Source: Verrucomicrobium spinosum DSM 4136 = JCM 18804 (GTDB taxonomy: Bacteria; Verrucomicrobiota; Verrucomicrobiia; Verrucomicrobiales; Verrucomicrobiaceae). Taken from it: a stretch of 64,000 bases of DNA. Every line of letters begins with the position of its first letter. Position 1 is the first letter of the stretch. Under the pieces are notes generated by a model that was not told where the DNA came from, did no database searches, and saw only the letters and a program-made list of their open reading frames with translations. Shown piece by piece: positions 3,190 to 16,792 of this stretch. The stretch covers positions 6,109,105-6,173,104 of the forward strand of contig NZ_ABIZ01000001.1 of assembly GCF_000172155.1 (NCBI RefSeq), read 5' to 3'. The position numbers were made by a program, and so were the translations under genes.

Positions 3190-4530
3190 TCAGTCCTTCA
3201 ACAATCCGGCCCATCCCGTCTCCAGGAACTTCCCCTTCCATTCCGCCCGGGAAAGCTTGCCGCGCGCGTTCGGCACGAGGTCCTGCCGCAGCCAGTACCG
3301 ACGGGGGCGCTGCCAGCCTGGAAGACGTTCCCCCATCCAGCGCACCAAGTCCTCCTGCCGGACTCCGGCGGAAGCGTCCACATTCACACAGGCCACCGTT
3401 TCCTCGCACCGCACCTCGTCCGCGCTGGGCACGCCGAAGACGACGCAGTGGCGGACACCGTCGCACGTGAGCAGGGCCGCCTCCACCTCGGCAGGGTTCA
3501 GCTTTCTGCCTGCGACATTGATGGTGTCACTGAGGCGTCCCCGCATGGTCACTCCACCGGTCTCGACATTAAGGTCCACCACATCACAGGTGCGAAACTT
3601 CCCGCCCCCCAAGGTTGCACGATCCTCGGTTTCCGCAGGCCAATAGCCCTCCCCCACCGCCGGACTGTGCACACATAGGCACCCGTCCTCCCCCAGCGTC
3701 AGCCCCGCCCCGTGCATGGCCTGGCCGGCGTAGCTGGCATCGCTCCGCGGTTCGGGGCTGGCATCATAGGCAATGCCGCCGCACTCGCTGGAGCCGTAGA
3801 AGTTGTGGATCTTGATCCCGGCCTGCGCAAAGACCTCCTCCTCCAGCTGGAGGGGCAAAGGAGCCCCTGCCGAGATGGCCAGGGCAATGGGCGCATCCTT
3901 CAACAATCCCGCCTGGTGCCAGGCCCGCCACATGGCAGGGACAGCGGGCACTGTGTAGCGAATGCCCAATGCGTGTGCCTGCCTTTTGGATGATGGCATG
4001 GGATCCGGCACCAGCACCATGGGGTGCCCCTGGAGAAGCAGCGGCAGGATCAGGTTGGAAAATCCGTAGCTATGGGCGAGGGAGATCACAGCCAGATTTG
4101 GGCATGAGACGTCCAGACCCATGGTCTGTCGGATGTTTTCCCCGTCCGCCGCCAGCTGGTCGCCGCGAAAGAGCACCCCCCGAGGCTGCCCCGTGGAACC
4201 AGAGGTGAACTTGATGTGGCAGATCTCTGGCGGGAAGCACACCCGCTGACTCGCAGCCTCCGCCAAGAGGGGCGGAGTATCCAGCTCCACCGGGCAGAGG
4301 ACCGCATCGTCTCTCCACGCCCGCAGGCACTCCAGCACGAGTTGTCGCGCCCCGCCCACCCCACGGACGGTGGCCACATGGACCTGCCTGGGCGTGAGTG
4401 GGGGCAACATGGCAACCTCTTCATGCAGAGCAGAGAAGGTCCACTGCTCTCCCGTGGCTGCGTCCCTCACCGCCACAGCATCGGCGTGCCGGTTCAGAGT
4501 CTGCAGCCAGAGGTCGTAGAGAGTGGGCAT
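3190..4530 (-). CDS. AMP-dependent acyl/aryl-CoA (or ACP) ligase of the polyketide locus
   Basis: An adenylate-forming enzyme that would activate a carboxylic acid as acyl-AMP and load it on CoA or an acyl carrier protein. The 446 residues include the phosphate-binding loop TSGSTGQPRG (109-118), the FYGSSE motif (244-249), the hinge region GRLSDTINVAGRKL (331-344) and the C-terminal catalytic lysine in ARGK (about 425). All core motifs are present although the protein is shorter than the usual 500-550 residues. ATG at 4530 is used; a TTG just upstream is possible. It is transcribed away from the ketosynthase genes across a 331-base gap, as starter-unit ligases often are in aryl-polyene-like clusters. 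Confidence 0.85.
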   Translation of the reverse strand: MPTLYDLWLQTLNRHADAVAVRDAATGEQWTFSALHEEVAMLPPLTPRQVHVATVRGVGGARQLVLECLRAWRDDAVLCPVELDTPPLLAEAASQRVCFPPEICHIKFTSGSTGQPRGVLFRGDQLAADGENIRQTMGLDVSCPNLAVISLAHSYGFSNLILPLLLQGHPMVLVPDPMPSSKRQAHALGIRYTVPAVPAMWRAWHQAGLLKDAPIALAISAGAPLPLQLEEEVFAQAGIKIHNFYGSSECGGIAYDASPEPRSDASYAGQAMHGAGLTLGEDGCLCVHSPAVGEGYWPAETEDRATLGGGKFRTCDVVDLNVETGGVTMRGRLSDTINVAGRKLNPAEVEAALLTCDGVRHCVVFGVPSADEVRCEETVACVNVDASAGVRQEDLVRWMGERLPGWQRPRRYWLRQDLVPNARGKLSRAEWKGKFLETGWAGLLKD

Positions 4531-4861
4531 CAATCAAGATAGGCAAGAAGAAGGACTAGACCCGGTGTCGGGCAGCCAGAATAGGAGCGTCCGGAACCAA
4601 ACCGCTAACTAGGCCCATCCAACCCGTTTCGCAAGCAGTCGCCACATCGAAGGCCCCGACATGTGTGTGGATTCAGGGCCCGTCATTGACCATGACAGCG
4701 TCTCTGCCTGATTCCCCCCCGGTCGTCCCGTCACCAAGCCCTCACACTCAACAAACACCCCATGAACGAAACACCATCAAGCACCTGCCCCCCCTCCGTC
4801 CATTGCCAACCTTGAACTCGGACCAAGATCCCCTTGAGCGTCCCTCGCACCCTCGCTAGAG
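4531..4861. promoter_or_regulatory. Divergent intergenic region of the polyketide locus
   Basis: This stretch separates the ligase (minus) and the ketosynthase (plus) and must hold the promoters for both arms. I see no convincing -10/-35 pair, operator palindrome or riboswitch. A GGTGGAGG purine run occurs at 4861-4868, next to the first possible ketosynthase start. The assignment as regulatory rests on gene orientation only. Confidence 0.4.
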
Positions 4862-4891
4862 GTGGAGGTTCATTTCACCCGTCATTCCTCC

Positions 4892-6166
4892 ATGCCGTAT
4901 CCCTCCTCCCCCTCCCCCGGCGCGCCCTTTCGCGTAGCGGTCACAGGTGTGGGCATCATCACGTCCATGGGCATCGGGTGGCGCCAGAATGCCGACGGAT
5001 TCCGTGAGGGGCGGCAGGCACTGCGCCCCATTACCCTCTTCGATGCCTCCAGCCAGCGGGTGCAGCGTGCCGGCGAGGTGGTTTTTGACCAACCCTTGCC
5101 TCCCACCCGGCTAGGTCGGCGGCAACTGGCCCGCTTGGATAGAGCCTCCCGCCTGCTGATTCACGCTGGCACAGAAGCTTTCGCCCAGAGTGGCTGGACA
5201 GCCAATGGTGATGCAGACGGCCCTCCTGCCGCAGAGATTCCCATTGTGCTCGGCACCAGCGCAGGTGCCATGGCGGTGGGTGAGAGCTACTATCGCCAGA
5301 AGGTGGAGACACCGGGCACGGCCCACTCGCTGCCACACAAGGTGATCCTGTACCAACCGCACACACAGGCTCAGTTCCTGGCCGATGCCCTGGGCGTCCA
5401 AGGCCCTGTGACAATGATCTCCAATGCGTGCGCGTCTGGAGCGAATGCGATTGGCCACGCCTTCCGGCTCATCAAAACGGGTCGTGCATCCAGGGCCATC
5501 GCTGGCGGCTACGACGCGCTGGCCCAGATGGTCTTTGCGGGCTTCGACTCGCTTCAAGCTCTGAGCACCACCTTACCTCGCCCTTTCGACGCCCAACGCG
5601 ACGGGCTCGCCTTGGGTGAAGGCGCAGCCGTTTTCACTCTGGAGCGCTATGAAGACGCCGTGAGTCGTGGGGCCACGATCCTCGCAGAAGTCACCGGATA
5701 CGGGGCGGCGACGGATCTCCACCACCTGACTCAACCCCACCCCCAGGGAGACGCAGCGCTCATCAGCATGACCCGCGCCTGCATGGAAGCCGACGTACCG
5801 CCCAGCCAGGTGCAATACATCAATTCCCACGGCACTGGCACGCCGCTCAATGATGTGGCAGAAGGCATGGCCATCCAGCGCTGGGCTGGCCCACACACTA
5901 CGGGCTTGATGGTCAGCAGTACCAAGGGAGCCATCGGTCACCTCCTCGGCGGTGCAGGGGCCGTCGAGGCCGCCATCTGCGTGATCGCCTTGCGCGAAGG
6001 TTTTGTGCCGCCCAATTCGCCAGTCTCAAATCCAGACCCCGTCTGCACCTTCGATCTGGTGCGCGAGCCCCGTCATGCGGAGCTCGACTGCGTCTTGACC
6101 AATTCATTCGGCTTCGGCGGAGCCAATGCCACCCTGGTGCTCCAGAGCACCCCTTCCAGACCGTGA
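4892..6166 (+). CDS. Beta-ketoacyl-ACP synthase (catalytic ketosynthase, KAS II / type II PKS-like)
   Basis: A condensing enzyme that would extend an ACP-bound acyl chain with malonyl-ACP. Counting from ATG 4892, the catalytic triad is complete: Cys180 in SNACASGANAIGHA, His313 in NSHGTGTPLND and His350 in KGAIGHLLGGAG. The N-terminal RVAVTGVGIITSMG and C-terminal NSFGFGGANA are the usual ketosynthase signatures. The length of 424 residues matches the family. A GTG at 4862 gives a form ten residues longer, and the start is unresolved. The stop overlaps the first codon of the next gene, implying translational coupling with the chain-length-factor-like partner. The product is unknown; aryl-polyene-type chemistry is an inference from context. 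Confidence 0.9.
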   Translation: MPYPSSPSPGAPFRVAVTGVGIITSMGIGWRQNADGFREGRQALRPITLFDASSQRVQRAGEVVFDQPLPPTRLGRRQLARLDRASRLLIHAGTEAFAQSGWTANGDADGPPAAEIPIVLGTSAGAMAVGESYYRQKVETPGTAHSLPHKVILYQPHTQAQFLADALGVQGPVTMISNACASGANAIGHAFRLIKTGRASRAIAGGYDALAQMVFAGFDSLQALSTTLPRPFDAQRDGLALGEGAAVFTLERYEDAVSRGATILAEVTGYGAATDLHHLTQPHPQGDAALISMTRACMEADVPPSQVQYINSHGTGTPLNDVAEGMAIQRWAGPHTTGLMVSSTKGAIGHLLGGAGAVEAAICVIALREGFVPPNSPVSNPDPVCTFDLVREPRHAELDCVLTNSFGFGGANATLVLQSTPSRP

Positions 6167-7284
6167 CACCGCCGACTTCCTCCATGTCCCCGTCTTCAGG
6201 TTCTTCCACACCCATCTGTCTCACCGGCTGGGGGGCCGTCTCCCCAGCGGGCTGGAACGCCACCACCCTGGCAGACGCCGTACTGGCGGGAATACCGCTG
6301 CCCCATGCCGCAGAGCGACGCGTCCCAGAGGCCCAGGAGCGGAAGTTCCGACGCGTGCCCCCCATCCCTGTCACGCCAGAATGGATGAAGCTACCCCGTC
6401 TGCGCCGCACCACCTCAGCGGCGCGCCATGCCGTGCACGCTGCCATGCAGGCTCTGGGCGAAGGCAATCTGGAGGCGATCCGCAGCAGCGGACGCCGCAT
6501 TGGCACTATTTTCTGCACCATGAGCGGCTGCGTACAGTTCAGCCGCCGGTTCTACGCCGAAGTCCTGGCAAATCCCCTCCTGGCCAGCCCTATCCTCTTT
6601 CCCGAGACTGTGTACAATGCGCCAGCCAGCCATGTCTCCTCGCTGCTCGGCTCTCCAGAGATGAACTACACGCTGGTGGGAGACTCCGCCCAGTTCCTCG
6701 CTGGGCTGGATCTGGCGGCTCAGTGGCTGGATGACGGTCTGGTCGATGCCTGTCTCGTGATCGCCGCTGAGGAGCTGGACTGGATCTCTGACGAGGCACT
6801 TCTGCTCTTTGCTCCCCACGGGGTGGCCGCAGAAGGAGCCGCTGCGGTGTTGCTGGAGAAGGACACATCTATGTCGGAAACGCCCCCCGGCGTCACTCTG
6901 CACGCGGTCACCGAGGCCTTCAGCTATGGTCAAGGACGCGATCGGGCTCAAGCTGCGGCGGCTGTCCGTGGCACTCTCGAACCCCTTGCCGAGCCGGGCA
7001 CGGTGTTGTGTGAAGGCTCCTACCCCGATACCCAGCCCGGCCCCCGCACCAGAGGTGATACCACCGAACAGAACCTCTGGCAGGACTGGGGCGGTCCTCG
7101 GTACGGGGTCAAGCCAGTGGTGGGAGAGGGCTTCGCCATCACCTCCGGCTGGCAGACGGTGCTCGCATGTGAGCTGCTCCAGCGGGGCCTTGCCAGCCAG
7201 GCCCTCATCAGTGCTGTGGGCCTCACCCAGCAGGCCATGGGCGCTATGCTGAAGGGTTCCCTCCATGAGCCTCTCCAGCCCTGA
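6163..7284 (+). CDS. Chain-length-factor-like ketosynthase lacking catalytic residues
   Basis: A ketosynthase-fold protein that should pair with the upstream active enzyme. The N-terminal PICLTGWGAVSPAGWNATT matches ketosynthases. At the active-site position the protein has VGDSAQFLAG instead of a NACASG-type motif, so the nucleophilic cysteine is gone. The HGTGT motif is replaced by a segment around LCEGSYPDTQPG, and the second histidine region reads VVGEGFAITSGWQ. Loss of Cys/His/His together with retained fold is what chain-length factors and decarboxylase-type KS-beta subunits show. The frame opens with GTG at 6163, overlapping the previous stop; ATG 6184 is an alternative. At 373 residues it is somewhat short for the family. 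Confidence 0.75.
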   Translation: MTPPTSSMSPSSGSSTPICLTGWGAVSPAGWNATTLADAVLAGIPLPHAAERRVPEAQERKFRRVPPIPVTPEWMKLPRLRRTTSAARHAVHAAMQALGEGNLEAIRSSGRRIGTIFCTMSGCVQFSRRFYAEVLANPLLASPILFPETVYNAPASHVSSLLGSPEMNYTLVGDSAQFLAGLDLAAQWLDDGLVDACLVIAAEELDWISDEALLLFAPHGVAAEGAAAVLLEKDTSMSETPPGVTLHAVTEAFSYGQGRDRAQAAAAVRGTLEPLAEPGTVLCEGSYPDTQPGPRTRGDTTEQNLWQDWGGPRYGVKPVVGEGFAITSGWQTVLACELLQRGLASQALISAVGLTQQAMGAMLKGSLHEPLQP

Positions 7285-7352
7285 CCCCCCCTCACAGCAG
7301 ATTCCACCGTATTATTTCGTTCCCCCCTCTTCTTCAAAAGCACCCTTTTTCA

Positions 7353-8081
7353 ATGCCCACAGTCACTCTCATCACCGGCGGCAATGGCGGCCTGGGCATC
7401 GCCCTCGCCACCGCATTTCTCCAGGCCGCCCCTGACAATGTCGTCTGGCTGGGCGTTCGCAACCGCCGGAACAAAGCGGAAGCCCTCGCGGAGGAGCACC
7501 CTAAGCGCTGCCACCTCATCCCGCTAAATGTGACCGTTGATACAGAGTGGACGGCCGCCATTTCAGAGATCCTCAGCGCTTCAGGCAGGCTGGATGTACT
7601 GGTGAACAATGCCGGGCATCACGAGGATGCGCTGTTGGCCACCATGTCCGATGCCATCTGGCAGGACGTCCTGCAGAGCAACCTGACCGGCACCTTCCTG
7701 GGCTGCCGAGCCGTGGTGAAACACATGATGGGACAGCGCTTCGGCCGCATCATCAACATCTCCTCCCTCAGCGCGCTGATGGCCCCCGCAGGCCAGACCA
7801 ACTATGCCGCCGCCAAGGCAGGCATCATCGGTCTCACCCAGAGCTTTGCCAAGGAAGTGGCGCGCGCCGGCATCACCGTGAATGCTGTCTGCCCGGGCTA
7901 CATCGAGACCGACGCCCTGGTCCAGATGTCTCCTGAGGAGCGCCGGGCCGCCGCCATGCGGGTACCCATGCGCCGCCTGGGCAAGCCGGAAGAAGTGGCC
8001 GCCGCCGTCCTTTTCCTTGCATCCCCGTCGGCTGCCTATATCACAGGAGCCGCCCTCAAGATCGACGGTGGCATCCTCTGA
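7353..8081 (+). CDS. FabG-like 3-oxoacyl-ACP reductase (SDR family)
   Basis: A short-chain dehydrogenase/reductase that would reduce the beta-keto group produced by the neighbouring ketosynthase pair, using NADPH. The cofactor loop is TGGNGGLG (residues 8-15) and the NNAG motif is at 85-88. The catalytic Ser138, Tyr151 and Lys155 (ISS and NYAAAKAG) fall at the same numbers as in E. coli FabG. The 242-residue length is typical. The C-terminal LASPSAAYITG and IDGG motifs are also canonical. It sits 68 bases after the chain-length factor and 82 before the ACP, so a single plus-strand operon is likely. Confidence 0.88.
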   Translation: MPTVTLITGGNGGLGIALATAFLQAAPDNVVWLGVRNRRNKAEALAEEHPKRCHLIPLNVTVDTEWTAAISEILSASGRLDVLVNNAGHHEDALLATMSDAIWQDVLQSNLTGTFLGCRAVVKHMMGQRFGRIINISSLSALMAPAGQTNYAAAKAGIIGLTQSFAKEVARAGITVNAVCPGYIETDALVQMSPEERRAAAMRVPMRRLGKPEEVAAAVLFLASPSAAYITGAALKIDGGIL

Positions 8082-8163
8082 GCCCAACACCTCCGATCCC
8101 TCTGCAAGGCCCTCCTCACCCTGCTTCAAAGTTTTCGTCCAACTCCGATCCGACCCCAGCAAA

Positions 8164-8427
8164 ATGGCAGACCTCGACCTCGACGCCCTTCGGCAGCAAA
8201 TCAAAGAAGCCATGGTGGAAGAACTCATGCTCCCCCAGGGTGCAGATGAAATCGCCAGCGATGCCGCCATCTTCAGCCCAGAGGGTCTCGGCCTCGACAG
8301 TGTGGACGCCCTTCAACTCGCCGTCGCCCTGGAGAAACGCTTCGGCCTGAAGCTCGCCGATGCCGCCGCCGCCCGCGAGGTGCTGCGCTCCGTGGACACC
8401 ATCGCCGCCGCCATCCAGGCGAAGTAG
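8164..8427 (+). CDS. Acyl carrier protein
   Basis: An 87-residue acidic carrier protein that holds the growing chain on a phosphopantetheine arm. The attachment serine is Ser46 in LGLDSVDAL; the more common motif is DSL, so the valine is a mild variant seen in carrier proteins of secondary-metabolite pathways. The four-helix ACP pattern is visible: DLDALRQQIKEAM, then the modification loop, then ALQLAVALEKRFG, then TIAAAIQAK. ATG 8164 was chosen because the longer open frame upstream overlaps the reductase and is shadow sequence. It is the last gene of the plus-strand polyketide arm. No phosphopantetheinyl transferase is in view. Confidence 0.85.
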   Translation: MADLDLDALRQQIKEAMVEELMLPQGADEIASDAAIFSPEGLGLDSVDALQLAVALEKRFGLKLADAAAAREVLRSVDTIAAAIQAK

Positions 8428-9482: not shown

Positions 9483-9503
9483 GATCCCGCCCTAAGCGGG
9501 ATC
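9483..9503 (-). terminator. Hairpin at the rimO stop codon
   Basis: An 8-base perfect inverted repeat, GATCCCGC then CCTAA then GCGGGATC, abuts the rimO stop codon (its last base overlaps the stop). It could terminate rimO transcripts, but no T-run follows on the minus strand, so a role as a repeat-unit hairpin is equally possible. Confidence 0.4.
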
Positions 9504-10939
9504 TACTGAGCCATCTTCGGCACCCGCTCACGGAAGGCCTCACGGCCTCCGTCACGCCCATTGAGACCGCCGTGCGCCACGAGGTCGTAGCCGCGCCAGT
9601 CGGAAATCGTCACCTCCGCGAACTCACCCACCGGGAGTGCCGGATCCACAAATACAACGCCATCGATATCGATGGAATCCATGTAGGAGCGGCCTTCGCC
9701 GGGATTCTCCACCAGGACGCGGTAAGTTTTGCCCAACTGGCTGGCGTTGAACTCCTCTGCCCGATGCTGCAAGACACGCATGGCTTCATTCCAGCGACGC
9801 TTGCGGGTGGAGTGGTGCAGATGGCCTTCCATTTTGTCGGCACGCGTTCCTTCTTCACGGGAGTAGTTGAACACACCGGCCCGCTCGAACTTCGTTTCCT
9901 CAATGAATTGGACGAGCTCCTCGAAGTCCGCCTCCGTCTCTCCGGGGAAGCCGACGATGAATGTGGTACGGATCGCGATACCTGGAATGCCCGCGCGCAT
10001 GCGCTGGATGAGTTCGCGAATGTACGCACCATTGGTCTCACGCTTCATCAGCGTCAGCATGTTGTCGCTGATGTGCTGGAGCGGGATGTCCACGTACTTC
10101 ACCACCTTTTCGCACTCTGCCACGGCCTGGATGAGCTCGTCACTCCAGTGCGCCGGGTGCGTGTAGAGCAGGCGGATCCAGAAGTCGCCCTCCAGGGCAT
10201 TCAGCTCCCGGATCAACGTGGCAAGACTCTCGCCGCGGCTGCTGTCCACGCCGCTGCGCGGGTTCGGGCGCTGCCCTTCCCACTTGTCCATGCCAAAGTA
10301 GGTCGTGTCCTGGGAGATCAGGTTGATCTCCTTCACCCCGCTCTTGATGAGCGCCTTGGCCTCGAAGACCACGCTCTCCTGCGTGCGGCTGCGGTGCTTT
10401 CCGCGGATCTTCGGGATGATGCAGAAGGAGCAGGGGTGGTTGCACCCCTCAGCGATCTTGATGTACGCAGTGTGTTTCGGCGTGAGGCGGAAGCGCGGGG
10501 TGTCGTAGTCCGGGATGTACTGCGGCTTCTCCGTGACATGGTTTTCCGGGGCCTCGTCCTCCTCGCGCTTCTTGCCCATGAGCCCCTCGATGATGGGAGC
10601 CACCTTCGTGAGCTGGTCCAGACCGATGAAGGCATCCACCTCAGGCATGAGGTTCGGCAGTTCCTGGGCGAATCGCTGGGCCATGCACCCCGCCACGATG
10701 ATCTTCTGCTTGGCCCGGACTTTTCCGCCCTCCGCACGGCCGTCCACGGCCTCATGCACACTGGCGATGCTCTCCTTCTTGGCCATATCGATGAAGGAGC
10801 AAGTGTTGATGATCAGCACGTCTGCTTCTTCCGCCTGCGGCGTCATGGCCATCCCTGCCTGCTGCAGGTGCCCAATCATGATCTCAGAATCAATGAGATT
10901 CTTCGCACATCCGAGGGAAACGAGGCCGACTTTGGTCAT
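9503..10939 (-). CDS. rimO: Ribosomal protein uS12 methylthiotransferase RimO
   Basis: A radical-SAM enzyme that adds a methylthio group to the conserved aspartate of ribosomal protein uS12. From ATG 10939 the 478 residues start TKVGLVSLGCAKNLIDSE, the RimO-specific opening. The MTTase N-terminal cluster ligands follow in LGCAKN, NTCSFI and VAGCMAQR. The radical-SAM triad is EGCNHPCSFCIIP, followed by GKHRSR. The C-terminal TRAM domain covers the last 70 or so residues (ISDWRGYDLVA). Length and motifs are canonical. It stands alone, with the tail of the repeat array at its 3' side and degenerate sequence upstream. Confidence 0.95.
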   Translation of the reverse strand: MTKVGLVSLGCAKNLIDSEIMIGHLQQAGMAMTPQAEEADVLIINTCSFIDMAKKESIASVHEAVDGRAEGGKVRAKQKIIVAGCMAQRFAQELPNLMPEVDAFIGLDQLTKVAPIIEGLMGKKREEDEAPENHVTEKPQYIPDYDTPRFRLTPKHTAYIKIAEGCNHPCSFCIIPKIRGKHRSRTQESVVFEAKALIKSGVKEINLISQDTTYFGMDKWEGQRPNPRSGVDSSRGESLATLIRELNALEGDFWIRLLYTHPAHWSDELIQAVAECEKVVKYVDIPLQHISDNMLTLMKRETNGAYIRELIQRMRAGIPGIAIRTTFIVGFPGETEADFEELVQFIEETKFERAGVFNYSREEGTRADKMEGHLHHSTRKRRWNEAMRVLQHRAEEFNASQLGKTYRVLVENPGEGRSYMDSIDIDGVVFVDPALPVGEFAEVTISDWRGYDLVAHGGLNGRDGGREAFRERVPKMAQ

Positions 10940-11360
10940 GGGGCGCAAAGTCTAGCACAAATGGCAAGGGAAGAAAGAAATTACAGCAACCCGGGACCAT
11001 TCGCCCGCACATAAGGAGAATCCCGATGGCTTTGGATAGACGTCTTCAGAGCTTTTTGGCATAACCAGAGATTGCCAAAAAAACTGTTCATTTGTACCCA
11101 GCCCCAGATCCCCAATCTCCCCAGCGACCACTTTTCCCCTTTCCTAAGAACTCCGCAAATCCTGTCAATCCAGTCCAAAACCCCTTGGACGGTCACAACA
11201 CCCCACAAAGACGCCTGTGTCCCCAGATTCCTATTCACCTCCCGCTACCGTTTGGAACTCGCGGCCACTGGGAAAAGTCCCTCCACCGCTACACCTGGCC
11301 CAGCGCAGACTAAACCCAAACACCTTGAGGGAATACCATCATCAACAGCATTTGATCAAG
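10940..11360. other. Upstream of rimO: no intact gene, possible decayed coding sequence
   Basis: No supported gene. A plus-strand frame near 11240-11290 contains RYRLELAATGKSP, which resembles the segment preceding the C-terminal module of the paralog family just downstream. This may therefore be the start of the first decayed copy. No promoter motif could be assigned for rimO. Confidence 0.35.
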
Positions 11361-12022: not shown

Positions 12023-12166
12023 TCTTCCCAATCGGGTGTGTCGCCCCCTCACTCTGCATCTACACATCCAGTTTCGGGCACCAGCCACATCTCTGCCAGC
12101 GGCCAAGCCCCATGTCATCATCAATCCCGCAAGACGAGAGTGAGATTAAATCAAAAACATTCCTAC

Positions 12167-13585
12167 ATGCCAGCAATCTCAGATCCCACTGCTGCCCAGG
12201 CACCCACCAGTCGACGTGTGCTCATCGTCGTGGTCACGTTGGCGCTTTCGCTCATTACCACCTTCATCGCCTTCCTGGTGATTTATGACATCGAACCACC
12301 CGATGCCAGCGACATGGCCCCAGTCCCAACCGCGAAAACGTCCGAATCCGGTCAGATCAATCCCCTGGAGAAGTTTCTCACGACGCTTCAGCAACACCCT
12401 GTGGACGCCCCGCCTCCGCGGAAGAAAGCTCCATCGGCAACGGGCCCCTCACCCCAGGAAACTGTTCTGAACAACCGCGCGTTGGTCCTCAAGTCCTATG
12501 AGGAACTTCTACAAACAGACCCCACCTCCTGGCGATGGCCGACGGAGACAGGCGTCTCGCTTGAGGATTCGCTGAATGGACAATTGAGACATCTGATGCC
12601 TGTCGCCAACCTCATCCGGGTGCAGGCAGGTCTCGCGGAATCGATATCCCCTGATGAGAGCATCCGGACAAACCTCTCTCTGGCACGATTCGCCCACGGC
12701 CTGAACAATTCGAGAGGCCTGCTGATTCACAACATGGTAACCGCTGCCATTCAGCGCACCGCCATCCTTCAACTCGAACGCCCTCTGGTTCTCAACGCCA
12801 TTTCTCCCATCACGTTGACATCAGTTCAAAGAGAACTGGATGCCCTGGATCCCTCCCTAGCGGCATTTGCCGAGACATTGAAGGCCGAATACCTGTTTGC
12901 CGCGCAAGCCTACCGGGCCGCCAAAGGCGGTGCGCCGCTGCAAGTGGATGCACGCAAGCTCAACCTTCGTGGCTATCCTGAACCAGTGAGAGGGATGCTG
13001 CTCAAACCCAACCTCACTCTGGCCACCCGCCTTGATCTTCATCGCCAGTTGATCAAGGGGCTTCAATCCAGCTGGAAGTCTGCGCTGGATGCCCATCAGA
13101 TCAGCAGGGGGAATCTTGATAAGATCTACCAATCACCGGTGCGCTTCTGGCTCAACCCCAACACCACCGGCATCGCCTTCAGCGTGTTGGATGCACAGGA
13201 TCTGCAAGACTCACTCATCCGCCAGATGGGTCACGCAACCATCCACAGGCAAGTCATCCTGCAGGTCGCCCTGCGCCGCTATGAAGTGGATCATCACCGT
13301 CTGCCTGATGATTTGAGCGAGCTTTCGCCTGCCTATCTATCCTCTATCCCCCAAGACCCTTTCACGGATTTGCCGATGCGCTGGAACCCCGGCACTCAGG
13401 TCCTATACTCCGTTGGCGTGAATGGCTCTGACGACGGTGGAGCCTTTCGCATACCTGTCACCATCGATGAGCGTGACATCGGTCAATATTATTGGTGGAG
13501 CAAGGCCGCCTCCCAAGCCCGAGACGCGCAACGCCTGGCACCTCCGGAGGAGAGTGGCCGCCCCGGGGTTCCCTCCGCTCGATAA
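12167..13585 (+). CDS. Intact member of a tandem paralog family, membrane-anchored, unknown function
   Basis: From ATG 12167 (MPAISDPTAAQ) the protein has 472 residues. A single membrane segment (RVLIVVVTLALSLITTFIAF) sits near residues 16-36. A proline-rich linker follows, then a long helical middle region and a C-terminal module with ALRRYEVDHHRLPDDLSEL, PAYLSSIPQDPFTDLPMRW and VLYSVGVNGSDDGG. The C-terminal pattern resembles proteins with pseudopilin-like tails known from Planctomycetes and Verrucomicrobia; the function is not known to me. The long upstream extension of the frame is not likely to be translated. Decayed copies flank it on both sides, so this is the survivor of a tandem amplification. 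Confidence 0.75.
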   Translation: MPAISDPTAAQAPTSRRVLIVVVTLALSLITTFIAFLVIYDIEPPDASDMAPVPTAKTSESGQINPLEKFLTTLQQHPVDAPPPRKKAPSATGPSPQETVLNNRALVLKSYEELLQTDPTSWRWPTETGVSLEDSLNGQLRHLMPVANLIRVQAGLAESISPDESIRTNLSLARFAHGLNNSRGLLIHNMVTAAIQRTAILQLERPLVLNAISPITLTSVQRELDALDPSLAAFAETLKAEYLFAAQAYRAAKGGAPLQVDARKLNLRGYPEPVRGMLLKPNLTLATRLDLHRQLIKGLQSSWKSALDAHQISRGNLDKIYQSPVRFWLNPNTTGIAFSVLDAQDLQDSLIRQMGHATIHRQVILQVALRRYEVDHHRLPDDLSELSPAYLSSIPQDPFTDLPMRWNPGTQVLYSVGVNGSDDGGAFRIPVTIDERDIGQYYWWSKAASQARDAQRLAPPEESGRPGVPSAR

Positions 13586-14237: not shown

Positions 14238-15152
14238 TCACCCTTTGACGGGCAGCATACCGAAGGCCTCCAGCACCACACGAGCCGCCGCGGCGACCAC
14301 CTCATTCTGCCACTTCGCATCCGCCGCCTTTTGCGTGTGATAAATTGCGAGCACAATCGGCTTGCGTCCCGGTGGCCAGAGGATTGCAATGTCATTGGCC
14401 GTGCCGTAGTCCCCTGACCCAGTCTTGTCGCCCACCTTCCAGCCGGGGGGCACTGCCGCCCGGATCCTTTTGTCCCCGGTGGTATTGCCTTGCAGCCACT
14501 CCACCAGCTTTGCACGCTGCGCCTCCGGCAGTCCGTCGCCCAAGGCCAGCTTTTGCAAGCTGTGCCCCATCGCCGCAGGGTTCGAGGTATCACGCGGATC
14601 GCCCGGCAACGCAGTGTTCAGTTCCGTCTCCCATCGATCCAGGCGGAACTGCGTATCGCCGATCGAACGCGCATACGCCGTCACCGCGCCAGGTCCGCCC
14701 AGGATCTTCATCAGAAGATTCGCCGCCGTATTGTCACTGTACTGCATGGCGGCCGCGCACAACGCCTCCACCGTCATCCCACCTTCCACATGCTTCTCCG
14801 TGACAGGTGAATAGGTCACCAGATCCTCTTTTGCATAGGAGACCCGCCGCGTCATCAAGCCTGCATCCTGCACACTCTGTTTCAGGATCGCCGCAGTCAG
14901 CATCACTTTGAAGGTGCTACAGACGGGAAACCGCTCCTCCGTCCGACGACTCACCTCCATGCCACTTTCCAGATCCAGTGCATACACACCCAAACGCGCG
15001 CCACTTGAGCCTTCCACCCCCTCGAGCTTGCTGATCGCAGCAGCCAGAGTCGCGGCCGGTTCTTGAGCAGATGAAGTGACGATCCGGAGCACCACCACCC
15101 CCGCCACCCCCAGGTGCCAGAGCGTTTTACAAAAGGACGAGCGCGTCATCAT
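14238..15152 (-). CDS. Class A beta-lactamase, CTX-M-like
   Basis: A serine hydrolase that opens beta-lactam rings in the periplasm. An N-terminal signal segment (LWHLGVAGVVVLRIVTSSA) precedes the mature domain. All class A motifs are present: STFK (active serine, preceded by cysteine), SDN in QYSDNTAAN, the omega-loop glutamate in RWETELNTALPGDPRDT, and KTGSGDYGT. The KTGS tetrad, the preceding cysteine and the overall run closely resemble the CTX-M group and its environmental relatives. ATG 15152 (or the next codon) was preferred over 15185 because the signal sequence then begins directly. No regulator such as ampR or mobile element is adjacent, so it is probably an intrinsic chromosomal gene. 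Confidence 0.92.
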   Translation of the reverse strand: MMTRSSFCKTLWHLGVAGVVVLRIVTSSAQEPAATLAAAISKLEGVEGSSGARLGVYALDLESGMEVSRRTEERFPVCSTFKVMLTAAILKQSVQDAGLMTRRVSYAKEDLVTYSPVTEKHVEGGMTVEALCAAAMQYSDNTAANLLMKILGGPGAVTAYARSIGDTQFRLDRWETELNTALPGDPRDTSNPAAMGHSLQKLALGDGLPEAQRAKLVEWLQGNTTGDKRIRAAVPPGWKVGDKTGSGDYGTANDIAILWPPGRKPIVLAIYHTQKAADAKWQNEVVAAAARVVLEAFGMLPVKG

Positions 15153-15349
15153 GCGGAAGGAGGATCGTACAGTGTTGCAAGCCATCCCGCAAGACCAAGC
15201 CCTTTACCCGACACGGAATGCCGGTTGACAGCACCCGACTCACGACGATCCCCATTCCTGGGCGACGAACCGGACGCCATTACACCACGTTGGACAAACC
15301 CTTGTTGACTATCGTCATGACGTGTGAAACCTCATGGGAAAACCTGCTC

Positions 15350-16792
15350 ATGCATGCCATCTGCCAGTTCTGCGGTGCCCCAAAGGCAAATCCCGTGTAC
15401 TCATGTCCTCAATGCTACCGGATTCCCCAAAGTGATCTGGAGTGTGGAGAGGCCATCCTGCTTTCAAGAGCTTGCATGTCAGACAACGATCTCGCCTCCT
15501 GTGCCGTCCAATTGAAACAAGGCATCCCGATAGGCCTGCCACCAGCCATTATCGCCTCGGTGGCGGCAGACTACCGGAAAGCCCTGACTGATGGCGCGAT
15601 AAAACGCAAAGCCAACGAGCACGCACAGAAGCTAAAGAAAGCCAAGGAGGACGCGCTGATCCGTCGGGTTATTCTGACTTTCGTCGCCATCTTCGTTCCC
15701 GCGTTTTGTTTCTGGCTTGCGTACGAAGCCCCGTCCGTACGTCTTTGGTACGCAAAAAAGCAGGATACTCCCGAAGCCTATTCGAAGGTGATGGCGGAAT
15801 TCGCAGGCACGATTCACGCCATCGAGGCGAAGCGGCGGTACCTTGAGTTGACTGACGACTCCGCCTGGGCTTCAGCTTCCCAAACCAACACCTTGCAAAG
15901 CCTCCGCTCTTACCTCACGGGGTACCCAGATGGCAAACACCACGCGCCCGCCAAGGATGCACTGTTCAGTCTGGCGCTCCCCCTTTGGGAAGAGACCGCC
16001 TCTGAAAAAGTTCCTGAAAATATTGCGGCATTTCCTGAGGGTTTCGAAGAAGTGGCGGAACGCTTTCCCGTGGTTCCCGTCTTGGACAAGCTTTGGAATG
16101 AGATCACCACAGAAAAATCACTTCAAAAGGTCGCCAGCTTTCGCAGACTGCCACCCCCCATCCAATCCCACTGGCCCATCATCGCCACGATGAGAGAACT
16201 GGCCAGTCCTGAATGGGAACAGGTGAAAAAAGCTCGATCCCTCGAAAGGATCGCTGAATTTGACCGGAACTATCCGCAATTGCGGCAGTGGTACAAGGCT
16301 GAAGAGGCCCGGGAGTTGCTCTACAACGATCCCTCATGGGTGAAGGAGCAAGATCAACTGGCACACTATCAACGATTCGTCGCCAGCCACCCGAAGCACA
16401 AAGATACTCCGTCGATGCAGAAGCGCATCATCGACCTGGAAGTAGCGGCAATTGCGGCGGGCGATCACGGAGCGCTTCCCAAAGCCGAAGCTACGGGACA
16501 ATCCCGCGGTGCACGCACAATCATTGCTCTCAAGAATGACACTGGGTATGAACTCACCGTGCGGTTCAGCGGAACGGAATCCACGAAAGTAGTTCTCGCA
16601 CAACGCACTGCGCAATCCGTTGACCTCCCAAACGGTACGTTCAAAGTAGCCGCCTCAGTCGATGCCTCTCATGTCGCAAACTACTATGGCACAGACGTGT
16701 ACAAAGGTGGCGTCTATGACCTTTCGTTCTATATTTCCAGCAGCCCCCTGAACCTCCCAGGCGACTATCTCCCCAGCCCTTTGGAGAACTAG
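15350..16792 (+). CDS. Zinc-ribbon, single-span membrane protein with helical repeats
   Basis: From ATG 15350 (or 15317) the protein begins with a zinc ribbon, CQFC and CPQC at residues 5-8 and 19-22. A cytoplasmic helical stretch rich in lysine follows, then one membrane segment (VILTFVAIFVPAFCFWLAY) near residue 110. The outer part of about 350 residues is built of helical, TPR-like segments, with repeated short phrases such as EKVPENIAAFPEGFEEVAERF, EKSLQKVASFRRLP and ARSLERIAEFDRNYP. It ends in a beta-rich domain (GYELTVRFSGTESTKVVL). No enzymatic motif is visible and I do not recognise the family. It is divergent from the beta-lactamase gene. Confidence 0.7.
   Translation: MHAICQFCGAPKANPVYSCPQCYRIPQSDLECGEAILLSRACMSDNDLASCAVQLKQGIPIGLPPAIIASVAADYRKALTDGAIKRKANEHAQKLKKAKEDALIRRVILTFVAIFVPAFCFWLAYEAPSVRLWYAKKQDTPEAYSKVMAEFAGTIHAIEAKRRYLELTDDSAWASASQTNTLQSLRSYLTGYPDGKHHAPAKDALFSLALPLWEETASEKVPENIAAFPEGFEEVAERFPVVPVLDKLWNEITTEKSLQKVASFRRLPPPIQSHWPIIATMRELASPEWEQVKKARSLERIAEFDRNYPQLRQWYKAEEARELLYNDPSWVKEQDQLAHYQRFVASHPKHKDTPSMQKRIIDLEVAAIAAGDHGALPKAEATGQSRGARTIIALKNDTGYELTVRFSGTESTKVVLAQRTAQSVDLPNGTFKVAASVDASHVANYYGTDVYKGGVYDLSFYISSSPLNLPGDYLPSPLEN

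Follow-up and report, generated by a model that had tools for sequence, protein, structure and literature searches.

What could a set of only five biosynthetic genes make? This question is raised by a locus of Verrucomicrobium spinosum DSM 4136 in which genes for an acyl ligase, a ketosynthase (KS), a chain length factor (CLF), a ketoreductase (KR) and an acyl carrier protein (ACP) lie side by side. It is located in the stretch of 64,000 nucleotides analysed here (the window), which covers positions 6,109,105-6,173,104 of the 8.22-Mb single-contig genome. An original prediction, made from the DNA letters alone, described a compact aryl-polyene (APE) or type II polyketide synthase (PKS)-like locus of only five genes that could make a short or incomplete product with the help of housekeeping enzymes. 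Our analysis suggests, with a probability of roughly 70%, that these five genes encode the synthase core of a dispersed, APE-like pathway of the highly reducing type II PKS kind, whose product would be a polyene lipid anchored in the cell envelope.

Coordinates and families of the five genes agreed with the original prediction. In window positions, the locus contains the following features.

3190-4530, minus strand: AMP-forming acyl ligase (ANL type), 446 amino acids from ATG 4530 or 447 from TTG 4533
4534-4861, no strand: divergent intergenic region between ligase and KS, presumed shared promoter (direct reading; arrangement conserved in relatives)
4862-6166, plus strand: KS with N- and C-terminal ketoacyl-synt domains (Pfam PF00109/PF02801), alternative start ATG 4892
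6163-7284, plus strand: CLF, non-catalytic KS partner, 373 amino acids, 4-base overlap with the KS
7353-8081, plus strand: FabG-type KR of the SDR family (PF13561, E 8.8e-58)
8164-8427, plus strand: ACP of 87 amino acids, phosphopantetheine motif GLDSVDA (PF00550, E 2.5e-7)

KS, CLF, KR and ACP form a run on the same strand, from which the ligase diverges. ATG 8164 is the start of the ACP proper; the open reading frame beginning at 7882 is over-long.

Synthase core

The KS carries an intact Cys-His-His triad (NACASG, HGTGTP, GHLLGG), and its residues C190, H323 and H360 are invariant among the 18 of 27 KSs that were aligned. A tree of 39 sequences was calculated, which included 14 of the 26 KSs of relatives and left out ApeC, 5 of the 9 sampled CLFs and three non-KS frames. 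In this tree 15 verrucomicrobial KSs formed one clade (support 100/100), and the FabF of V. spinosum itself grouped with E. coli FabF at weak support (88/42). The backbone of the tree has weak support, and a number of reference sequences sit on long branches. By the approximately unbiased (AU) test, a clade uniting the verrucomicrobial KSs with the two FabFs was rejected (p-AU 0.005). A clade with ApeO, to which the KS is 35% identical, was not rejected (p-AU 0.457; weak branch, ApeO on a long branch), and one with Streptomyces highly reducing KSs was neither supported nor rejected (p-AU 0.078).

These results bear on the possibility that the genes are a duplicated fatty-acid elongation set, i.e. 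paralogues of FabF, FabG and ACP serving ordinary lipid metabolism. In its favor, the best-scoring models of the KS are FabF-type, with TIGR03150 at 354.7 bits below its cut-off of 493.75, and the KR exceeds the cut-off of the FabG-type model PRK12826.1-2 (234.7 against 222). However, the joint clade with FabF is rejected, the genome has a FabF of its own, and the core retains a dead KS partner, in some relatives fused in frame with the KS, that has no place in fatty-acid synthesis. Moreover, the gene of this partner is dispensable if it is the one inactivated in a published mutant (see below). Hence, we regard a fatty-acid synthase duplicate as the least probable of the explanations considered. 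The placement of the KS outside the primary FabF/FabB enzymes was also the test proposed along with the original prediction, and together with the KS triad, the CLF, the KR and the ACP it sustains the type II PKS-like class assigned there.

The CLF reaches just 26 bits with the Pfam ketoacyl-synt model (cut-off 20.8) and lacks all three catalytic residues of KSs. In the profile alignment Ser175 takes the position of KS Cys190, with GDSAQ where the KS has NACAS, and neither His motif is matched. A Cys at this position is found in 0 of 25 aligned CLF homologues. The motif PETV[FY]N.P.SH is conserved in this CLF type. The CLF alignment omits L027, L038, L040 (broken 8-amino-acid reading) and L058, which is the window itself (L and G numbers are our designations of loci or stretches and of genomes). 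The AlphaFold2 model (mean pLDDT 84, pTM 0.87) predicts a CLF fold: Foldseek against the PDB ranks ishigamide CLF chains at positions 1-3 (E 7e-17 to 3e-16) and chains of the AntDE anthraquinone complex at positions 4-6. We take the latter to be CLF chains because of their length of 348-355 residues versus 443 for the KS chain. FabF and FabB rank below these chains, and identity to the best PDB matches is 16-20%. Judged from this model, the KS has the type of partner, KS-like and without active-site Cys, that is typical of type II PKSs. No relation to E. coli ApeC was detectable (hhalign probability 1.6), and ApeC is reported to be about half the size of its KS (PMC8358021). Thus, the CLF is full-length and of a separate type, not of the half-length ApeC type.

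The ligase matches AMP-binding (PF00501, E 1.7e-24) and AMP-binding_C (PF13193, E 4.9e-9) in Pfam, and a script search located the core motifs TSGSTG, YGSSE, GRLSDTINVAGRK and RGK. This short ANL enzyme shares 27% identity with E. coli ApeH (E 2e-10), and its top NCBIfam models are general acyl-CoA ligases, long-chain ones among them. Its putative role is activation of a starter acid and loading of the ACP. The KR shows a Pfam adh_short_C2/KR match with NNAG and YAAAK motifs, shares 34% identity with ApeQ (E 8e-37) and scores below the cut-off of the FlxB model. The ACP has a PP-binding domain (Pfam). Its top NCBIfam model is PRK09184, at 45.8 bits below the cut-off of 70, and its best match among 17 Ape proteins is E. 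coli ApeE (37%, E 4e-11), which places it with the ApeE-type ACPs. A stand-alone ACP and KR are again features of type II PKSs.

Conservation of the core

Among 57 genomes, that of V. spinosum included, 40 contain a CLF relative. We read 28 loci (27 of relatives and that of V. spinosum) over up to 20 kb around the CLF, some of them shorter at contig ends. The divergent ligase adjoins the KS in 23 of these, and 12 loci have KR and ACP in the vicinity; in L042 the ACP follows 4 kb further on. The divergent ligase/KS/CLF layout persists down to identities of 28% (ligase), 33% (CLF) and 48% (KS), and the genes flanking the core block are mostly unshared between loci. This layout and the CLF relatives in 40 of 57 genomes speak against a chance arrangement. 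In 6 of the 27 KS-bearing loci (L029, L039, L043, L049, L050 and L052), KS and CLF share one open frame of about 778-834 amino acids, a ready-made pair in a single chain.

Within GTDB release 220, the species-level collection contains 345 stretches that code for a CLF relative. Counts were made for the best 80 of these, with flanks of up to 6 kb and many contigs cut. They contain the KS in 77 cases (counted without fused KS-CLF queries), the ACP in 58, the KR in 49 and the ligase in 28. Of the accessory genes described below, the FAD protein occurs in 19, GT2 in 4, and dehydratase and LolA in 2 of the best 80. Four of these stretches are titled only 'bacterium', and the remaining ones bear names of Verrucomicrobiota or of what we take to be its groups.

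Probable pathway genes elsewhere in the genome

The core genes and accessory genes of relatives, together 15 pathway gene types, served as queries in a local tblastn search of the 64-kb window (E up to 1e-4), which matched none of these types beyond the five core genes. Hence, a dehydratase, an acyltransferase and the like are absent from the window as far as the queried types are concerned. In this respect the original prediction, which had listed acyltransferase and dehydratase as absent, was right; the cyclase and thioesterase that it also listed as absent are outside the query set.

The five genes probably do not, however, make up the whole set. Beside the core, some relatives carry genes for Trp-halogenase-like FAD proteins, a patatin, a flippase-like membrane protein, an LPLAT acyltransferase, a polysaccharide deacetylase or a methyltransferase (MT). 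By following these extra genes a FabZ-like dehydratase was found, which adjoins MT and GT2 genes in G042. The dehydratase search in V. spinosum used the protein of a relative as query; the ApeI model PF22818 gave sub-threshold matches only in this genome. The following features were located, in genome coordinates.

3,576,897-3,577,331: FabZ-like dehydratase with FabA domain, preceded by LolA at about 400 bases
4,522,484-4,523,509: LPLAT acyltransferase, with a small membrane protein
5,591,279-5,593,423: GT2, a 207-amino-acid lipoprotein-like protein (no Pfam match) and MT in a row

The core thus lies at 6.114 Mb, dehydratase and LolA at 3.577 Mb, LPLAT at 4.522 Mb, and GT2 and MT at 5.591 Mb, and 0.5-2.5 Mb separate the core from its scattered partners. 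The FabA-domain protein is predicted to supply the dehydratase that is not encoded in the core locus. GT2 aligns with residues 9-242 of E. coli ApeJ at 38.9% identity (E 3e-42), LolA matches ApeL weakly (E 8e-4), and the LPLAT of V. spinosum has no blastp match to any Ape protein. Unlike APE genes, the GT2, LolA and acyltransferase genes are placed outside the core cluster.

Other candidates were rejected. The halogenase-like FAD protein of V. spinosum (2.776 Mb) belongs to another subtype than the one tied to the core in many relatives, to which it is 42% identical, and is not claimed as a part. An MMPL exporter, present in 43 of the 57 genomes, was dropped since it also occurs without the core; its neighborhood in V. 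spinosum (L258, by eye) contains nothing relatable. A second KS of this genome (L054, 2.937 Mb) was considered as the seat of the missing genes, but is FabF-like and stands alone near murA. A KS match at 4.70 Mb is thiolase-like by eye and adjoins fatty-acid oxidation genes.

Some of these regions yielded further observations. In L070 (9811-14249, about 2.776-2.781 Mb), a protein that by eye resembles cation/proton antiporters lies between two Trp-halogenase-like FAD proteins. This gene order recurs in G003 (L089), and three such FAD genes stand together in G010 (L085). The FAD proteins of this group differ in subtype from the core-tied FAD protein. The second KS (L054, 9173-10438) scores below the fabF equivalog cut-off, has a GtrA-like neighbor (by eye) and lies about 1.6 kb from murA.

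Co-inheritance and linkage in other species

Presence was scored at E<=1e-31 for the dehydratase, E<=1e-70 for GT2 and E<=1e-150 for the main FAD subtype. The dehydratase is present in 40 of 40 genomes with a CLF (CLF-positive) and 1 of 17 without (CLF-negative). The figures are 38/40 and 1/17 for MT, missed in G002 (76% complete) and G009 (75%), and likewise 38/40 and 1/17 for LPLAT, missed in G009 and G020 (85%). GT2 was found in 28/40 and 0/17, and the main FAD subtype in 27/40 and 1/17. The sole CLF-negative exception is G026 each time, the contig of which starts inside the KS; ligase, MT, deacetylase, LPLAT and FAD genes follow this truncated KS within 7 kb (L259). We read G026 as an assembly cut, with which the split of the dehydratase becomes 41/41 versus 0/16. 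CLF-positive and CLF-negative genomes occur together in 4 of 6 families and in genus g16 (G040 negative, G042 positive), and are always concordant. The true CLF-negative genomes contain weaker dehydratase matches only, of 1e-12 to 1e-16 at best. These are mostly frames of about 440-490 amino acids, which we take to be LpxC-FabZ fusions.

In other species the scattered parts are found next to each other. In a metagenome-assembled genome of the Verrucomicrobiales (L234), LolA and dehydratase (both identified with Pfam) are followed without interruption by ligase, KS, CLF, KR and ACP, and in L236 dehydratase and LolA lie within 5 kb of the core KR. Core, MT, deacetylase, LPLAT and FAD genes are close together in L259 (G026), L047 and L048. 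Dehydratase, PlsC-type acyltransferase, GT2 and MT are joined in L148 (G010), as are LolA, a GT2 frame, deacetylase, LPLAT and MMPL in L160 (G041). GT2 proteins of weaker similarity (32-36%) are encoded near the core in L200, L202, L232 and L243. GT2 and MT apparently are even fused in one open frame in G041 (526 amino acids) and G048 (544 amino acids).

L160, 6632-8203 (G041): GT2-MT fusion frame
G048:C4, 955-2397: GT2-MT fusion frame

Hence, every part claimed as scattered in V. spinosum adjoins the core or another part in some other species. Relatives furthermore encode a patatin and, in G031, a PlsC-type acyltransferase 33% identical to ApeD (E 2e-19). In a second locus of G013 (L074, 9186-11071), a close copy of the core ACP directly precedes a halogenase-like FAD gene, which suggests the ACP-bound chain as the substrate of the FAD enzyme. 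A family of proteins of about 245 amino acids is encoded next to the core, or elsewhere on its contig (L202 624-1352, without Pfam match; L200 598-1326; L236 8213-8968) and is a possible further member of the pathway.

It had been proposed that the five genes are self-sufficient and borrow acyltransferase, dehydratase and thioesterase from housekeeping metabolism for a short product. Such a set would fit a window that contains no further queried pathway gene type and flanks that are mostly unconserved. In contrast, separate dehydratase, MT and LPLAT genes track gain and loss of the core and adjoin it in other species, and the 16 core-less genomes retain only weak-scoring FabZ-type matches. Neither the proposal of only five genes nor that of a short or incomplete product relying on housekeeping enzymes is supported: dehydratase, LolA, GT2, MT and LPLAT genes are located elsewhere in the same genome, and dehydratase, MT and LPLAT are inherited together with the core. 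We consider self-sufficiency very improbable.

Proposed pathway

By homology to enzymes of the APE and ishigamide pathways, we infer the following reactions for the dispersed pathway. The ligase would activate a starter acid and load it onto the ACP. The KS-CLF heterodimer would condense this starter with malonyl units, with malonyl loading assumed to be provided by the FabD of V. spinosum. The KR would reduce each keto group and the FabZ-like dehydratase, encoded 2.5 Mb away, would remove each hydroxyl, resulting in a run of double bonds whose length is probably set by the CLF. The resulting polyene acid, most likely aryl-capped, may be methylated by the MT (0.5 Mb away). The ApeJ-like GT2 (0.5 Mb away) and the LPLAT (1.6 Mb away) may then modify the product and anchor it to lipid, and the LolA-like carrier encoded next to the dehydratase may help to deliver it to the outer membrane. 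The product would presumably be a pigment.

The same machinery could also operate with an aliphatic or hydroxy starter and yield a specialised unsaturated or hydroxy fatty acid in an outer-membrane lipid, without any pigment. The best models of the ligase are long-chain acyl-CoA ligases, the ACP also matches an ornithine-lipid ACP model (below cut-off), and the LPLAT and LolA of V. spinosum as well as the patatin of relatives point to lipids. Yet KS-CLF combined with KR and dehydratase is the pattern of a polyene synthase, with no adjacent enoyl reductase noticed, although none was sought. The ACP has PRK09184 as its best model and ApeE as its best relative in the E. coli APE system, GT2 is ApeJ-like, and the closest structures of the CLF come from polyene and aromatic PKSs. 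Taken together, a non-aryl product seems unlikely, but among the alternatives it deserves the most serious consideration. Of the aryl-polyene or type II PKS-like locus in the original prediction, the type II PKS-like core can be retained. The aryl part is tentative; the ligase is 27% identical to ApeH and matches general acyl-CoA ligase models best.

Several observations weigh against an APE-like pathway. The aryl head is its least certain step, because the ligase is far from every model compared, and product and starter acid are putative. The CLF is full-length and shows no detectable relation to half-size ApeC. The KS has no clear closest placement at ApeO, given the weak support there and the p-AU of 0.078 for joining the Streptomyces highly reducing KSs. 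At the loci read, no counterpart of ApeR, ApeP, ApeF, ApeK or a second ACP was found (these were not sought genome-wide), ApeB, ApeG, ApeK and ApeN were without blastp match, and ApeP reached just E 0.024. GT2 is absent from 12 of the 40 CLF-positive genomes at E<=1e-70, and when the threshold is relaxed to 1e-15, CLF-negative G053 gives a weak GT2 match as well. The main halogenase-like FAD protein is absent from 13 of the 40, V. spinosum included. MMPL occurs in 4 of the 16 true CLF-negative genomes (G040, G044, G051, G053) and is absent from two CLF-positive ones. Finally, the Fisher p of 2.9e-13 for the dehydratase ignores relatedness and is not a chance probability.

An existing mutant

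For V. spinosum, two mutants in VSP_RS24925 have been reported, the deletion strain DV025 and the Tn5 insertion strain DV085 (PMC12283558). The PCR and PstI fragment sizes given there for DV025 imply a deletion of about 1,065 bases, beyond which a single PstI site follows after 412 bases. When fitted in both orientations, these sizes match a deletion of 6199-7264 inside the CLF gene (6163-7284), with no other PstI site in the amplicon span than the following one.

7671-7676, no strand: single PstI site fitting the published DV025 genotyping (PCR/PstI size arithmetic)

With reversed flank names the sizes also fit the KS, and there are four further fits in a long type I PKS gene, one of them with a second site. 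In the same report (PMC12283558) murA, which lies at 2.940 Mb, is VSP_RS11945; with evenly spaced locus tags this would amount to about 4,063 units per Mb. The predicted tags are then about 24,850 for 6.115 Mb and about 13,600 for 3.34 Mb, where the type I PKS lies. This arithmetic excludes the type I PKS and not the neighboring KS. The CLF is favored over the KS because of the orientation and the weak-KS annotation. Thus, VSP_RS24925 very probably is the CLF gene of the window, and V. spinosum very probably can do without this CLF under laboratory conditions. In the names of the genotyping primers, LFR_Whi and RFR_Whi (PMC12283558), 'Whi' may mean 'white'; this is a hint only, and the word is absent from the main text.

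Whether the dispersed pathway is a widespread, Verrucomicrobiota-own route to a pigment lipid, with a new full-length CLF type and with loci that in some lineages are split over at least four places yet gained and lost together, is a tentative proposal to which we give slightly less than even odds. Dispersal combined with strict co-inheritance is its surprising part. If true, a polyene-type pathway can be functionally whole though physically dispersed, and genome mining based on gene neighborhoods undercounts such pathways; cluster-based mining would report a five-gene fragment or an incomplete pathway. It would also provide a candidate envelope-bound pigment lipid for a large phylum. The proposal is testable, as the CLF apparently is the gene deleted in DV025, one of the earliest targeted mutants published for this phylum.

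Other genes of the window

A frame at window positions 9503-10948 (minus strand) resembles RimO, the ribosomal protein methylthiotransferase, by eye. Not close to the core, a class A-type beta-lactamase family protein is encoded at 14238-15185 (minus strand; PF13354, E 2.9e-46). Two proteins of 515 and 524 amino acids, encoded at 12038-13585 and 15218-16792 (plus strand), have no Pfam match at E 0.001. The 515-amino-acid protein belongs to a small group of which four copies lie side by side in one genome of the same genus (cluster 23, L028).

Comparison with known systems

In the literature, surveyed mostly at the level of search results, we found no statement on color or pigment of V. spinosum and no such pathway for Verrucomicrobiota, yellow-pigmented Prosthecobacter included, beyond one antiSMASH label. 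This is the 'arylpolyene' prediction for the yellow verrucomicrobial isolate Oceaniferula flavus (PMC9865893).

With the flexirubin and xanthomonadin systems the pathway shares halogenase-like FAD proteins, which in several relatives are encoded beside the core or its ACP, and a KR that is FlxB-like below the cut-off. V. spinosum differs from them, as its genome is without the main FAD subtype. Plasmid-borne type II PKS sets of Streptomyces (NZ_CP134610, NZ_CP106799), for which the label 'highly reducing' is our own, likewise combine a KR, dehydratases and several KSs, and their KS3 is a near neighbor of the window KS in the tree. In contrast to the dispersed genes of V. spinosum, they contain two dehydratases and a KSIII in one cluster.

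The highly reducing type II PKS of ishigamide biosynthesis (iga) resembles the core in the full-length CLF fold, the CLF chains of Iga11-Iga12 being the best PDB match of the model. It also shares the logic of KS, CLF, KR and dehydratase for building a polyene, with Iga13 described as the KR and Iga16 as the dehydratase. Identity is only about 20%, however, the pathway belongs to another phylum, and the V. spinosum core has lipid-envelope companions.

Most parallels are found with the APE systems of E. coli CFT073 and Xenorhabdus doucetiae (apeA-R). There, ApeH is an acyl-ACP synthetase, ApeI and ApeP are dehydratases, ApeJ is a glycosyltransferase/acyltransferase, ApeD a lysophospholipid acyltransferase and ApeL a LolA-like protein (PMC8253772). 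V. spinosum shares with them the combination of ligase, ApeE-like ACP, KS-CLF and KR in the core and, elsewhere in its genome, a FabZ-type dehydratase, an ApeJ-like GT2, LolA, LPLAT and MT; relatives additionally have a PlsC-type acyltransferase and MMPL. Differences are the full-length CLF instead of half-size ApeC, and a KS just 35% identical to ApeO. Because the CLF is not of the ApeC type, the genes do not form a single cluster and an aryl starter is unproved, we do not classify the locus as an APE cluster. Instead of one APE cluster of about 15 kb, the V. spinosum genes are distributed over at least four places of the chromosome.

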